This document shows, one piece after another, positions 809-21,981 of a stretch of DNA of 21,981 bases (positions are counted from its first letter, which is position 1; each line of letters begins with the position of its first letter). The stretch spans positions 1 through 21,981 of the IMG/VR virus record IMGVR_UViG_3300042459_000829. The stretch is one strand, 5' to 3'. A model generated the notes under the pieces. It ran no database searches, was not told where the DNA came from, and saw nothing but the letters and a program-made list of their open reading frames with translations. A program made the translations under genes and the position numbers. The DNA is from a virus.

Positions 809-2767
809 ATGAAAGATTTTTTATCAAAAGGGGGAAGGACTAGCGTACAGGTATCTAGAATGGATGATACTGAAAATAGTGCAGTCTGGACTACAAAAAA
901 AGTAGATCAACTTCTACTAGACTTTGAAAATGGTTTAATTGATATTAAGACCATTAAGAATTCTCCATTTAAGGATAATGACCCTGCCTGGAAAAAGCAA
1001 AATTTGGTTTTTGAATATACTCCAGAAGAACTTGAAGAAATTAAGCGCTGTAAATCTGATGTAGGTTACTTTGCAAATAAGTATGCTCAGGTTTTAACTG
1101 AATATGGAGTAGAACAAATTGTTTTACGTGATTACCAAGAGGAAATTATTAAGGCATTTGGCGCAAACCGCTTTAATATCTTAATGGCAAGCCGTCAAAT
1201 TGGTAAAACTGTAATGTCTGGCGTATTTGTTGCATGGTATCTTATTTTCCATACAGATAAAAATGTTTTAGCGGTAGCCAACATTGCAAGTACAACCAAA
1301 GAGGTTGTTGATAAAATTAAATCTATTTTTGAAAATTTGCCATTTTTCCTAAAACCTGGCTGTATTTCAAATAACGTTATGTCGATGAAGTTCGATAATG
1401 GCTGTAGATTAATTGGACGTACTACAACCAAAAATACAGGTATTGGTTTTACTATTCACTTACTATACATTGATGAGTTTGCTCACATCTCACCAGCATA
1501 CTTAGATTTCTTTTATCGAGCAATTTACCCTACTATTTCTGCATCAACTACCTCCAAGATTATTATTACATCAACTCCAAATGGTATGAATAGATTCTAT
1601 GAAATCTATATGGATGCAGTAAATGGACTAAATACTTATACTCCGCTAAGAGTAGACTGGTGGCAAGTTCCAGGTAGAGATGATAAATGGAAAGCTGAAA
1701 CTATTGCAAACATGGGATCAGAAGAAGACTTTAACCAGGAATATGGTCTACAGTTCTTTTCGTCCGATCGATTATTGCTTTCTTCTAAAGATCTTAAAAA
1801 GATTTTTGGAATTATGACTAAATATGAAGAGCCTCTTAATATTAATTGGGATCCGGAAGTTCTTGCCTTAATGGAAGGGAACTTTACAGTACATCCAAAT
1901 CTAAAGGATTGGGACGAGCAGGATTTTAGAAATTCGCCAGATCGATATGTATTTTCAGTCGATACAGCAGACGGAACAGGAAAAGACTTTTCAGTTATTA
2001 ATGTATTTAAAGTTGCACCTCTTCCAGTTAAAATGTTGGAACCAATTAAAAATCTAGTAAAAAGCGAAATGGATTGCCTATCCCTTGTGCAAGTTGCAAC
2101 TTGGAGAAGTAATAAGCAAACAATTAATGAATATGCTCAAGTTTTAGAATATTTGGTTTATAGACTCTTTAATTTTGAAAATCTTAAAGTCTTAATTGAA
2201 TTAAACCATAAAGGGGATTTTATCTTGGACAAAATTGCAAATAACGAACAGTATTGGCCTGGACAACTAATTCATTCCAAACACACAGAAGCAACTAAAT
2301 TACTTAAGCCCGGTCTTAAACTAAGCGTTACCAATAAAATTAAATTTTGTGAAAGATTTAAATACCACGTTAATGTTAATAAAATTCTTCCAAACGAAAG
2401 TAAAACTGTAATGGAATTAGGATCATTTGGTAGATCAACTAATGGTACATATAGAAGTCAAAGTGGAAACGATGACTTAGCAATGACTTGTGTTAACACT
2501 GCCGCATTCTTTGATTCTCCTAGTTTTCTTGAATTAGGAACAGAAGTTTGGGACAGTACAAGCGAGGAATACAAAAAAGAAATAACTGAAAAAATCTTAA
2601 ATTCTAGTCAGGGTGATGGCTCAACCAAGATTAGCTCAGATTTAGTAGGTTATCTAAATGATACTCCACAACTAAAAAAACCTGGACAGCGTCAAGTTTT
2701 TGATGAAACTTATCTAGATTCGTATAAAAAGACACTGGCTGGATTTTATGGAGATCAAAAAAACTAA
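809..2767 (+). CDS. Terminase large subunit (packaging ATPase-nuclease, T4 gp17 type)
   Basis: This 652-aa DNA-packaging motor has both halves of the family. The ATPase carries the Walker A variant ASRQIGKT (127-134), Walker B LLYIDEFAH (218-226, D222/E223) and the coupling motif ITSTPNG (253-259), followed by NRFYEIY as in T4 gp17. The RNase H-like nuclease shows the expected acidic triad: D385 in VFSVDTADG, E464 in VLIELN and D555/D556 in GNDDLAM. Length is close to T4 gp17 (610 aa) with a modest C-terminal extension. It would dock on the portal, translocate DNA into the prohead and cut the concatemer. Headful packaging would be usual for this family, though the sequence does not show it directly. 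The ATG at 809 follows the previous stop by 2 bp (TAATTATG), with no Shine-Dalgarno sequence. Confidence 0.96.
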   Translation: MKDFLSKGGRTSVQVSRMDDTENSAVWTTKKVDQLLLDFENGLIDIKTIKNSPFKDNDPAWKKQNLVFEYTPEELEEIKRCKSDVGYFANKYAQVLTEYGVEQIVLRDYQEEIIKAFGANRFNILMASRQIGKTVMSGVFVAWYLIFHTDKNVLAVANIASTTKEVVDKIKSIFENLPFFLKPGCISNNVMSMKFDNGCRLIGRTTTKNTGIGFTIHLLYIDEFAHISPAYLDFFYRAIYPTISASTTSKIIITSTPNGMNRFYEIYMDAVNGLNTYTPLRVDWWQVPGRDDKWKAETIANMGSEEDFNQEYGLQFFSSDRLLLSSKDLKKIFGIMTKYEEPLNINWDPEVLALMEGNFTVHPNLKDWDEQDFRNSPDRYVFSVDTADGTGKDFSVINVFKVAPLPVKMLEPIKNLVKSEMDCLSLVQVATWRSNKQTINEYAQVLEYLVYRLFNFENLKVLIELNHKGDFILDKIANNEQYWPGQLIHSKHTEATKLLKPGLKLSVTNKIKFCERFKYHVNVNKILPNESKTVMELGSFGRSTNGTYRSQSGNDDLAMTCVNTAAFFDSPSFLELGTEVWDSTSEEYKKEITEKILNSSQGDGSTKISSDLVGYLNDTPQLKKPGQRQVFDETYLDSYKKTLAGFYGDQKN

Positions 2768-3782: not shown

Positions 3783-4427
3783 ATGACAGGAAACAAAAAG
3801 GTCACAGGTTACGAAGATCTAAACCGCCGCCTCAATGATGAAATGCAGCAGCTTGCCGAAGCAATTGTTGCTAAAACTTTCACCGAAAGAGACCGAAATC
3901 GATTAGTTCGAATAATGGAACCTAAACTTAAATACTTTATTTGGAAGTTCTTTAACGATAAGGACGAAACCGAAGAAGTATTACACAATACGTTCTTTAA
4001 GATATTCAAATCGCTTGATAGCTATAATCCAAAATATAGATTTACAACTTGGATCTATACTATTGCCAGAAATGAATCTCTATTGCATTTGCATAAACTT
4101 AAACAGCAAATGACAACTGATATTGATAAAATTGGAAATTCTCTATTTTTAGTCGATGACAGTCGAGATAATTTAGAAAAGGAGAATTCTTTGGAGAATC
4201 TTTACACTGCAACTATGCTTGCAATTGAAGAGATGCCAGAATCGTTAGAAAAATCCATCCTAATTGACAAGGAGCTAAATAAGATGAAGGGTGCTGATAT
4301 TGCAGACAAATACGATATGAATCTCAATACAGTTAAAACTAAAATCAGAAAAGCACGTAAAATATTAAAAGACTCAGTTTTGGAAAGTAATCCTGAACTG
4401 GTAGAAAAAATAAAGGATCTTTTCTAA
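3783..4427 (+). CDS. ECF-like sigma-70 family RNA polymerase sigma factor
   Basis: This 214-aa protein has the two core domains of a group 4 (ECF) sigma factor. Region 2 spans about residues 40-105, with the 2.3/2.4 signature YNPKYRFTTWIYTIARNE (81-98). Region 4 spans about 145-197, with a helix-turn-helix ADIADKYDMNLNTVKTKIRKARK (given as 171-180 plus 181-193). The linker between them (110-140) is acidic. There is no region 1.1 or 3. This differs from T4 gp55, which lacks a normal region 4, so promoter recognition here may use both -10 and -35 contacts. It would redirect host RNA polymerase to phage promoters. Its stop overlaps the next gene's ATG by one base (TAATG). No Shine-Dalgarno sequence is seen. 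Confidence 0.88.
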   Translation: MTGNKKVTGYEDLNRRLNDEMQQLAEAIVAKTFTERDRNRLVRIMEPKLKYFIWKFFNDKDETEEVLHNTFFKIFKSLDSYNPKYRFTTWIYTIARNESLLHLHKLKQQMTTDIDKIGNSLFLVDDSRDNLEKENSLENLYTATMLAIEEMPESLEKSILIDKELNKMKGADIADKYDMNLNTVKTKIRKARKILKDSVLESNPELVEKIKDLF

Positions 4428-19905: not shown

Positions 19906-21516
19906 ATGAAGAAAATTAAATCGATATCTATTTTATTAGAGCAAGGTCCACCTGATCTTAGCGCTCTTCAAAGTGGAACTATTACTACTCCAACTACACA
20001 ACCAGCTGACGGTAAAGGGAGGAGAACTAGAAAGGATGATACTAACACAGATACTGATACTGATCCCGCTCCTACTGACACTCGCTCTGAACTTAAAGAT
20101 AAGGAGCCGTGGGTATCTCTATTGAAATTACCAGGCAGTATTCTACATGATCAAGATGGAGTTAAAGTTGGAACAGATAAAACTATTAAAGAACCTTGGC
20201 CTTGGGCTGTAGCATGGACTTCGACTGGTGGAGAAGTATATTCTCCTACAAGTAAAACTCCAGTTAAAACTGATAAAGAATATATTTTTAAAACAGAAGG
20301 CGGACAGGAAGTAATAGTTCACTGGAAAAAGTCTGCAACGGATATTCCGTATTTGTATAGTGGAACTTATACAATTGGTAGCGGCAAGCTTACAATAACT
20401 GGACTGGGCGGACAGTCTGAGATTATAGATTTAGCAACCGGTAAAATTGAAAAGACTAATGTAAGCGTTGTTCCAAGTAGTGAGCTTGAATTAAATGCAG
20501 TAGTATCTTCCTTTTCAAGAAGAAGTATCAACCTATCTTGGTATTTTTATATGAGAATGTTTAATTTAAAAACAGAGAGCCCGGCTCTATACTCTTTAAT
20601 TAAAACCAAATTAGAAAGTAAAGGTTACGAAGTGTTTACTAAGCCGGCTGGCTTTATTAATAAAAAAGATATGACAATTGATGCTAGCTCACTTCGTAAA
20701 TACACAGCTGGGTATTGGCCAGTTACAAATAAAATATATTCACAGTTTGCGCCCGGAATAGATTCTGTGCCATTTGCCTCAATCGCAGACTTAGGTAATT
20801 CTGTAGTAGGTAAGAAAGGAGATCCTGCAAAGGATGCAACATTTACCTCTGGTTATGACTACATCTCATATAAAGTAGAAAAGGCCATGTCCAGTACAAA
20901 TTTTGATACATCTGAAGCCCAAGCATTTTATGCAATATTAATAGGACTAAGACAATCTGCTCTAAATACTCTTAACGGTTATGCTAAAACTGCTGGTATT
21001 AATATTCCAAATAGTTTAAGTCTAAGCGATTACATATTAGGAGAAGTTAGTTCAGAGTGGAAGTCGACTTATGAAAAATATATTTCTCCACTCCAATCGA
21101 CAAATGGAAAGTCTTTTCCGATTAGTGCGCTTGAAGCAGATGGTGGAAAGGGTTCTGGCGATGAGGCTTGGTTTAAGGCTGTATCAGATTTGAATGCATT
21201 AGGTGGAGATGTTTTAGAAAAGGCTCTAAGTAGCATACCAGCTGCACCAGCAAAAGTTACTCAATCTAACCCCAATGACCCAGCCGTTGGTGGAATTATG
21301 TCGGACTCTAGACTAAAGGACGATATTAATTTAATAGGTACGTCAGAAAGCGGTCTAAACATTTATTCATTTAAATATAAAGATAAAGAGGGATATTATC
21401 AAGGGGTAATGGCCCAAGAATTAATTGGAACAAAATTTGAATCTGCGGTAATCCTAGAAGATGATTTTTATTCAGTTAATTATGATTTAATTGATGTTGA
21501 CTTTAAACAAATTTAA
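19906..21516 (+). CDS. Virion protein with C-terminal peptidase S74 intramolecular chaperone domain
   Basis: This 536-aa protein begins MKKIKSISILLE then QGPPD, a second capsid-targeting-like leader (L-L-E at residue 12). A Thr/Asp/Pro-rich linker with TDTDTDP repeats (about 40-60) follows, then a large unrecognised domain. The C-terminal 71 residues form an S74 domain: SDSRLKDDI (466-474) with the catalytic Ser and the Lys/Asp positions, then IYSFKYKDKE, GVMAQELI and YSVNYDLIDVDF. S74 domains fold trimeric tail fibres/spikes and self-cleave. A tail-spike role and an internal-protein leader are not easily reconciled. The next gene starts 4 bp after this stop. Confidence 0.8.
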   Translation: MKKIKSISILLEQGPPDLSALQSGTITTPTTQPADGKGRRTRKDDTNTDTDTDPAPTDTRSELKDKEPWVSLLKLPGSILHDQDGVKVGTDKTIKEPWPWAVAWTSTGGEVYSPTSKTPVKTDKEYIFKTEGGQEVIVHWKKSATDIPYLYSGTYTIGSGKLTITGLGGQSEIIDLATGKIEKTNVSVVPSSELELNAVVSSFSRRSINLSWYFYMRMFNLKTESPALYSLIKTKLESKGYEVFTKPAGFINKKDMTIDASSLRKYTAGYWPVTNKIYSQFAPGIDSVPFASIADLGNSVVGKKGDPAKDATFTSGYDYISYKVEKAMSSTNFDTSEAQAFYAILIGLRQSALNTLNGYAKTAGINIPNSLSLSDYILGEVSSEWKSTYEKYISPLQSTNGKSFPISALEADGGKGSGDEAWFKAVSDLNALGGDVLEKALSSIPAAPAKVTQSNPNDPAVGGIMSDSRLKDDINLIGTSESGLNIYSFKYKDKEGYYQGVMAQELIGTKFESAVILEDDFYSVNYDLIDVDFKQI

Positions 21517-21520
21517 GTTA

Positions 21521-21715
21521 ATGCTAATTATTGATATAAAAAATTCAGACTCATTAGAGCGAGCTCTAAAAATACTTAAGCGAAAGGTTATTGACACTAA
21601 GCAATTACAAAACTTACGTGACCGTAAAGAATTCGAAAAGCCTAGTGTAAAGCGTCGTTCTGAAATTAATAAAGCAAAGTACATTCAAAAAAAGCGAGAT
21701 GTAAATAATAAATGA
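21521..21715 (+). CDS. rpsU: Phage-encoded ribosomal protein bS21 (Bacteroidota type)
   Basis: This 64-aa protein is a full-length bS21: MLII start, ERALKxxKRK (13-22), LRDRKEFEKPSVKRRSEI (32-49), then KAKYIQKKRD. It matches the pattern of Bacteroidota bS21 (MLII..., KPSVxRR, YIQ) better than the E. coli form, which is longer with a basic extended tail. bS21 sits at the 30S platform next to the 16S rRNA 3' end. Y54 aligns with the Tyr that, to my recollection, stacks on the anti-Shine-Dalgarno region in Flavobacterium ribosomes. The ATG at 21521 is chosen over an upstream TTG at 21491 that lies inside the previous gene. It has no Shine-Dalgarno sequence. Its stop overlaps the next ATG (ATGA). 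Confidence 0.93.
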   Translation: MLIIDIKNSDSLERALKILKRKVIDTKQLQNLRDRKEFEKPSVKRRSEINKAKYIQKKRDVNNK

Positions 21716-21981
21716 TTTTTACCTTCACAGACTATTTAGCAGAAAGCGAAAAGCAGCTTGAAATTAGAGCAGCCGGCCTCGCTATTATCTGGGAAGGAAA
21801 GCTTTTATTAATTCATCCATCAAATGCAAGTTGGAAAAATCAACCTTTTGGAATTCCTAAAGGAGGAATTGAACTAGGTGAAGATCTTTTAACTTGCGCA
21901 ATTCGTGAAACTAGAGAAGAGACCGGGGTTACGGTAGATCCAGAACTAATTGATAAAAATGAGAAATATTTTGTATTTTAC
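21712..21981 (+). CDS. Nudix hydrolase with capsid-targeting-like leader (partial, runs off window)
   Basis: An ATG at 21712 overlaps the bS21 stop by four bases (ATGA) and reads 90 codons to the window end without a stop. The Nudix box is complete: GGIELGEDLLTCAIRETREE then TGV, at residues 51-73 (G51, E57, R65-E66, E69-E70, G72). Nudix enzymes cleave nucleoside diphosphates linked to X, including capped RNA 5' ends, NAD and ADP-ribose; the substrate cannot be told here. The N-terminus MIFTFTDYLAE-S matches the T4 capsid-targeting pattern (MKTYQEFIAE-A) with the Nudix fold beginning just after, at about residue 18. It is likely co-translated with bS21. Confidence 0.9.
   Translation, partial: MIFTFTDYLAESEKQLEIRAAGLAIIWEGKLLLIHPSNASWKNQPFGIPKGGIELGEDLLTCAIRETREETGVTVDPELIDKNEKYFVFY

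Follow-up and report, generated by a model that had tools for sequence, protein, structure and literature searches.

A phage bS21 gene of the Bacteroidota type with a leader free of Shine-Dalgarno sequence, and a minority of phage rpsU genes that carry one

The window analysed here is the whole of a 21,981-base stretch of viral DNA (IMG/VR record IMGVR_UViG_3300042459_000829, positions 1 to 21,981), and it covers a tailed-phage packaging and structural region with genes for terminase subunits, PhoH, a sigma factor and virion proteins. The best-ranked relatives of the large terminase subunit (809..2767, + strand; 30-38% identity) include three huge bS21-carrying phages (Flavobacterium phage MaF61 and Prevotella phages Lak); cyanophages are among them as well. 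A phage sigma factor with sigma-70 region 2 (3783..4427, + strand) adjoins PhoH and could drive late genes. An rpsU-like gene at 21521..21715 (+ strand), recognized by translation, phmmer, Pfam and NCBIfam, encodes a 64-aa bS21 with Tyr54, the residue that contacts the anti-Shine-Dalgarno (anti-SD, or ASD) sequence. Directly upstream lies a 536-aa gene (19906..21516, + strand) whose C-terminus matches Peptidase_S74 and a PHROG virion structural family; its stop ends 4 nt before the rpsU ATG, and the 25-nt rpsU leader (21496..21520, + strand) overlaps its 3' end. Downstream, a NUDIX hydrolase gene (21712..21981, + strand; profile match) is cut by the window end and is 160 aa long in a relative, L002. 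Its ATG overlaps the rpsU stop (ATGA), and this 4-nt overlap is kept in all eight unique loci of the window clade, across which the gene upstream of rpsU varies in length. rpsU shares the strand of both neighbours in 7/7 of these loci with an upstream gene in reach; the eighth has none in reach. The NUDIX gene (window 21712-21981; L002:6192-6674) matches Ap4A hydrolases and has a weak, below-cut-off similarity to RNA pyrophosphohydrolase. A search of the window for RNA families and tRNAs returned none. A 142-kb record carries a bS21 identical to the window protein.

The sequence-only reading of this DNA had proposed a Bacteroidota-type bS21 of 64 aa at this place, and the translation, both family profiles and a structural reference bear this out: the protein scores 46.5 bits against Pfam PF01165 (cut-off 27) and 37.7 bits against NCBIfam TIGR00030 (cut-off 28.95), and phmmer aligns its residues 1-60 without gaps on Flavobacterium johnsoniae bS21 (7JIL chain z, E 3.7e-11). 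That reading had left the equivalence of Tyr54 to be decided by alignment, and the gapless alignment places Tyr54 on Tyr54 of the F. johnsoniae protein. By sequence, the window protein has the residue that marks the Bacteroidia-type ASD-sequestering bS21, and stacking on A1534 is predicted. An AlphaFold model (mean pLDDT 86, pTM 0.43) has helices at 12-26, 28-34 and 41-63 in a helical bS21-like form; all 13 Foldseek matches in the PDB are ribosome entries, the best at E 0.057 and none below 0.001. The C-terminal core (Lys40, Arg46, Ala52, Tyr54) is conserved. Of 78 unique phage proteins, 65 have Tyr at position 54, 3 have Phe, 2 have His and 8 have Arg; in a larger set of 155 phage proteins drawn from the matches listed, 131 have Tyr. 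The eight unique Arg54 proteins form one phage clade within L035-L053, with His in L040; this clade lies outside the aromatic-only pattern of the 61 proteins of Chen et al. 2022, as described in the covered parts of that paper (PMC9723584).

Comparison of 155 phage proteins (among the matches listed) with 147 host proteins gives the greatest divergence at positions 18, 24, 21, 23, 28, 8 and 30, with positions 17, 20, 22, 40, 42, 46, 52 and 54 nearly alike in the two groups. Most of these phage proteins carry substitutions for the basic residues at 18, 21 and 30; the window protein has Ile18, Val23, Ile24, Gln28 and Gln30 and still has Arg21. This list agrees with and extends the differing residues given in the covered text of Chen et al. 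(Arg21, Phe23, Asp25 and Thr28; PMC9723584). A FastTree tree of 302 leaves (phage proteins among the matches listed), built on 64-residue proteins with one host order thinned to a third, requires only 5 host/phage changes; 50 label shuffles gave a mean of 100 and a lowest value of 91. The nearest host bS21 found (G010) is 60% identical to the window protein. This separation and distance point to an established phage lineage and not to recent capture from a host.

Ribosome-binding potential was expressed as the pairing of each leader with the 13-nt 16S rRNA tail that holds the anti-SD, an extended SD being a pairing below -13 kcal/mol; an AGGAGGT placed in neutral surroundings scores -12.5 kcal/mol on this scale. 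Among 16 genomes, the 13-nt anti-SD was exact in nine, had one mismatch in one and three mismatches in another, and was not found in five. The genome with three mismatches, of 1.7 Mb and from the order of G181, has a 16S-like 3' end ATATCTCTTTTTT (G408:C19:1132-1174) with an apparently altered anti-SD. The 25 bases before the window ATG are GTTGACTTTAAACAAATTTAAGTTA and pair at -0.6 kcal/mol, so that the earlier observation of a start without an SD stands. The leader falls outside the class of SD-autoregulated rpsU genes, which is defined by an extended SD, and SD-based feedback is not expected for it. The ATG is the correct start, since close relatives share the protein from that codon (GTG in L004 and L005) and do not share the upstream sequence; a longer, TTG-started ORF of 74 aa (start 21491) was rejected on the lack of upstream conservation in close relatives. 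The claim that the phage genes lack SD sequences in general also survived: the strongest pairing among the 23 window genes is -6.4 kcal/mol, with no SD in any, and in the 142-kb record one of 107 ORFs of at least 100 aa pairs below -9 and three below -7 kcal/mol. No SD was found in the eight unique leaders of the window clade. The A content of the window-gene leaders is unremarkable, except for A at -1 in 70%.

Leaders of phage rpsU genes were surveyed in IMG/VR through three scans blind to SD and two SD-seeking scans; together these yielded 159 unique pairs of leader and protein whose starts could be read, among the matches listed. One SD-blind scan took 80 of 558 relatives; another returned at least 120 matches, of which 118 were used and two rejected. 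L019 and L042 were left out for unreadable starts, and G136:C32 and several other loci, mostly in 600-kb genomes, lie outside the survey. Survey ORFs begin at the first ATG, some starts therefore being wrong, and many of the contigs and of the host genomes are closely related. Eight of the 159 leaders pair below -9 kcal/mol and one below -13 (among the matches listed), and none of the eight belongs to the window clade. The SD-blind scans gave 2/80 and 3/97 leaders below -9 and none below -13, and 48 phage clusters at 70% identity include four with a leader below -9 and one below -13, again among the matches listed.

A minority of phages with an SD on rpsU went beyond what the sequence-only reading had expected. 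A scan for GGAGG before a bS21 start found 15 contigs (L442, L451, L453, L455, L463, L465, L488, L490, L531, L536, L539 and L572-L575) with seven unique leaders at -11.2 to -13.5 kcal/mol and sites such as AAAGGAGG, AGAGGAGGT and similar; the scan is complete but bound to particular codons and GGAGG, and misses some SD bearers such as L322. On the fetched stretches of the 15 contigs, 0/113 other ORFs of at least 80 aa pair below -9 and one below -7 kcal/mol, the contigs being near relatives and the ORFs not independent; a mock region further upstream of the same 113 ORFs gave nine below -7. L322, outside the 15, has an rpsU leader at -9.8 kcal/mol and one of ten other ORFs below -9, which argues against an SD on rpsU alone. 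Three relatives of the SD-bearing contigs (L632, L649 and L677) have partial sites (AAAAGGAAAA), and the site is thus subject to gain or loss. Since rpsU has an SD in the 15 contigs and the 113 other ORFs have none, phage rpsU may exist in two regulatory states.

A second feature separates the window clade from most other phage rpsU genes. The element GTCAAA occurs within 80 nt before rpsU in 110/159 unique phage leaders among the matches listed (50 shuffles: mean 3.4, maximum 7), whereas no member of the window clade has it. The element is specific to rpsU: elsewhere on these stretches it precedes 21/705 ORFs, against 22 in a reversed control. Among the matches listed, 84 of the 110 leaders, for example L309, L328 and L577, also have an ATATTT-type box (ATATTT[G/A]TA) 3' of GTCAAA, by a regular expression defined post hoc from leaders already inspected. 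In these 84, again among the matches listed, the box ends 3-5 nt from the ATG in 42, 18-23 nt in 35 and between these distances in seven. The Flavobacterium -7 element is TAHHTTTG, 4-5 nt from the start site (PMC6847099, parts covered); with this spacing, a box 3-5 nt from the ATG predicts a leaderless or nearly leaderless rpsU mRNA. The 18-23 nt class should, from its spacing, have short leaders, and the L442-type SD sits within such a short leader. In F. johnsoniae, 87% of predicted transcripts have leaders longer than 10 nt (PMC6847099, same parts). A TAnnTTTG-like box was rejected as a general promoter of the antisense phages (7 matches before 263 other ORFs, 8 in the reversed control). 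An ARAGORN tmRNA call in L565 has a long tag and looks like a false positive.

The bS21 type, the lack of SDs on the genes and the terminase relatives at 30-38% identity, cyanophages among them, make it probable that the host is a member of the Bacteroidota. Host rpsU leaders were sampled in the order of G002, reached through Flavobacteriales-labelled MAGs; no bS21 in this order is close to that of F. johnsoniae, and a second sample was therefore drawn from the order of G181, with bS21 97% identical to the F. johnsoniae protein. Sampling was even over genome species and included many small genomes. Extended SDs occur in 18/92 unique leaders of the order of G181, 6/140 of the order of G002 and 8/13 further picks across the phylum, and Flavobacterium-type host genes that carry one pair at about -17 to -22 kcal/mol. 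The expectation of a strong SD on host rpsU thus holds for some lineages and fails as a general statement. In the covered text of McNutt et al. 2023, an extended SD is reported on rpsU in ~80% of Flavobacteriales and 0 Bacteroidales (PMC9976891). At 70% identity, leaders below -13 kcal/mol occur in 4/26 host clusters from the order of G181. A row-level Fisher test (18/92 against 1/159 among the matches listed, p 6e-8) is inflated by relatedness and was not relied on. Among the 27 host loci nearest to the window protein, an extended SD is present in five and absent from 22, and the nearest (G010) has no SD. Three genomes of the order of G181 (G257, G272 and G242) combine a single SD-bearing rpsU with additional, divergent bS21 copies (context loci L556-L559); the leaders of these copies pair at -9.8 (L402) and -1.5 kcal/mol (L397), those of L418 and L419 are not below -9, and none of the four is below -13. 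A search for a CRISPR link compared 20 kb of the window with 296 genomes from the order of G181; 71/296 gave a match, the best in the PhoH region, and none of five short matches inspected lies in a spacer array. L552 has three copies of a 20-base repeat, spaced 102 bases apart, some 2 kb away from its match to the window.

Viral rpsU and phage bS21 with Tyr54 are known already, and the window gene is a further member of this group with a different gene order. The Flavobacterium bS21 and ASD literature on which the sequence-only reading drew is represented correctly there, as far as the covered parts of two papers go (PMC9976891, PMC9723584). The phages of Chen et al. (PMC9723584, parts covered) share with the window the bS21 family, Tyr54 or another aromatic residue, a structural-gene neighbourhood, a diverged N-terminal helix and predicted Bacteroidetes hosts. 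Their rpsU is described as antisense to the structural genes, whereas the window rpsU lies on the same strand, after a virion-protein gene and overlapping NUDIX. The autoregulated rpsU of F. johnsoniae (PMC9976891, parts covered) has a homologous product, Tyr54 at the same position and SD-less surroundings, but a Flavobacterium-like leader pairs at about -20 kcal/mol on the measure that gives -0.6 for the window. Pelagibacter phage HTVC008M also encodes a bS21 and belongs to another host group, a likeness drawn from its description; its bS21 is reported to enter E. coli ribosomes (Mizuno et al. 2019, as cited in PMC9976891). According to the covered text of McNutt et al., SD blindness depends on the C-terminus of bS21 and on Tyr54, and a reporter given AGGAGGU responds to bS21 mutation or depletion, which the SD-less original does not (PMC9976891). 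A search by title and opening of the abstract, with subscription papers and preprints mostly outside its scope, found no paper on the SD status of phage rpsU leaders. In the covered parts of Chen et al. (PMC9723584), 'promoter', 'ribosome binding site' and 'autoregulat' are absent and 'SD sequence' appears once, on Bacteroidetes generally.

We consider it probable that the phage bS21 encoded in the window is functional and replaces host bS21 on the 30S platform, its synthesis probably falling late, together with that of the structural proteins. The family match, the Tyr54 alignment, the frequency of Tyr54, the host/phage split in the tree and the SD-less leaders of the clade favour this replacement model. 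Exchange of phage bS21 into Bacteroidetes ribosomes is itself a published proposal (Chen et al. 2022, PMC9723584; McNutt et al. 2023, PMC9976891, discussion; parts covered), and phage bS21 is described as expressed late in replication, with structural genes (PMC9723584, same parts). Tyr54 of the phage protein would stack on A1534 and keep the anti-SD tail masked, and ribosomes carrying it would stay SD-blind and suited to SD-less mRNAs such as the phage's own. Without an SD on its mRNA, synthesis of phage bS21 would be independent of bS21-deficient ribosomes and outside the SD-based feedback loop. In a host with this loop, excess phage bS21 would fill bS21-free ribosomes, and the feedback of the host itself would then turn host rpsU down and so help replacement along. 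Where the loop is missing, as it is for most of the Bacteroidota leaders sampled, the replacement step alone would apply. McNutt et al. suggest that host rpsU autoregulation is a possible counter-defence that refills host bS21 (PMC9976891, parts covered), and a phage bS21 able to mask the anti-SD would weaken this defence. The earlier proposal of escape from host autoregulation fares unevenly: the phage leader is SD-less, but the 22 of 27 nearest host loci without an extended SD speak against the feedback-escape part. Escape is not claimed for the window phage.

The SD absence may instead have no regulatory meaning, phage genes being SD-less generally and host rpsU perhaps too, with replacement occurring and nothing escaped. 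We judge this unlikely, even with the absence of SD from all 23 window genes, the 134/140 unique leaders of the order of G002 that are not below -13 kcal/mol and the SD-less rpsU of the nearest host found to recommend it. The weak contrast at cluster level (4/26 host clusters below -13 against 1/48 phage clusters among the matches listed) also fits it and counts against the best explanation, and SD-less leaders are the default in these phages, so that SD absence alone is no proof of selection for escape. Against it, some phages have an SD on rpsU and on 0/113 other ORFs, which means that the site can arise or persist, and the SD is strong and rpsU-specific in Flavobacterium-type hosts (PMC9976891, parts covered).

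A reading centred on specialised ribosomes, in which the altered N-terminal helix (18-30) shifts mRNA choice towards phage mRNA and rpsU regulation is secondary, follows the proposal of Chen et al. (PMC9723584, parts covered) and seems to us rather doubtful. Positions 18, 21, 23, 24, 28 and 30 are among the most host/phage-divergent, with the basic residues at 18, 21 and 30 mostly replaced, as this reading would have it, and residues 21, 23, 25 and 28 of Chen et al. (covered text) point the same way; yet host mRNAs are largely SD-less too, and leader A content, the sole phage mRNA feature examined, is unremarkable save for the A at -1. It is very improbable that bS21 works chiefly away from the ribosome or lowers host translation by competing weakly: nothing favours this beyond the NUDIX partner and the changes in the N-terminal region, whereas the C-terminal core is conserved and incorporation into ribosomes has been reported for another phage bS21 (cited in the covered text of PMC9976891).

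The part worth following is the two-state pattern of phage rpsU leaders. We put forward tentatively, as a possibility we hold with less than even confidence, that phage rpsU genes occupy distinct positions relative to host bS21 feedback, most being open loop and a few wired in. Open-loop genes would be SD-less within late operons, as in the window clade, or leaderless to short-leadered from a dedicated rpsU promoter, as in the antisense clades. In the wired-in type, rpsU would be apparently the sole SD-bearing phage gene, best translated by bS21-lacking ribosomes; by analogy, phage SD sites similar in strength to the AGGAGGU of McNutt et al. could sense bS21-free ribosomes. Bacteroidota ribosomes lacking bS21 are a clear published case of specialised ribosomes, and phages are suspected of exploiting bS21. 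SD-less and SD-bearing phage rpsU genes are natural variants, and the replacement model is testable with the published F. johnsoniae rpsU'-gfp reporters. If the pattern is true, phages would either override or tap the specialised-ribosome switch of their hosts.
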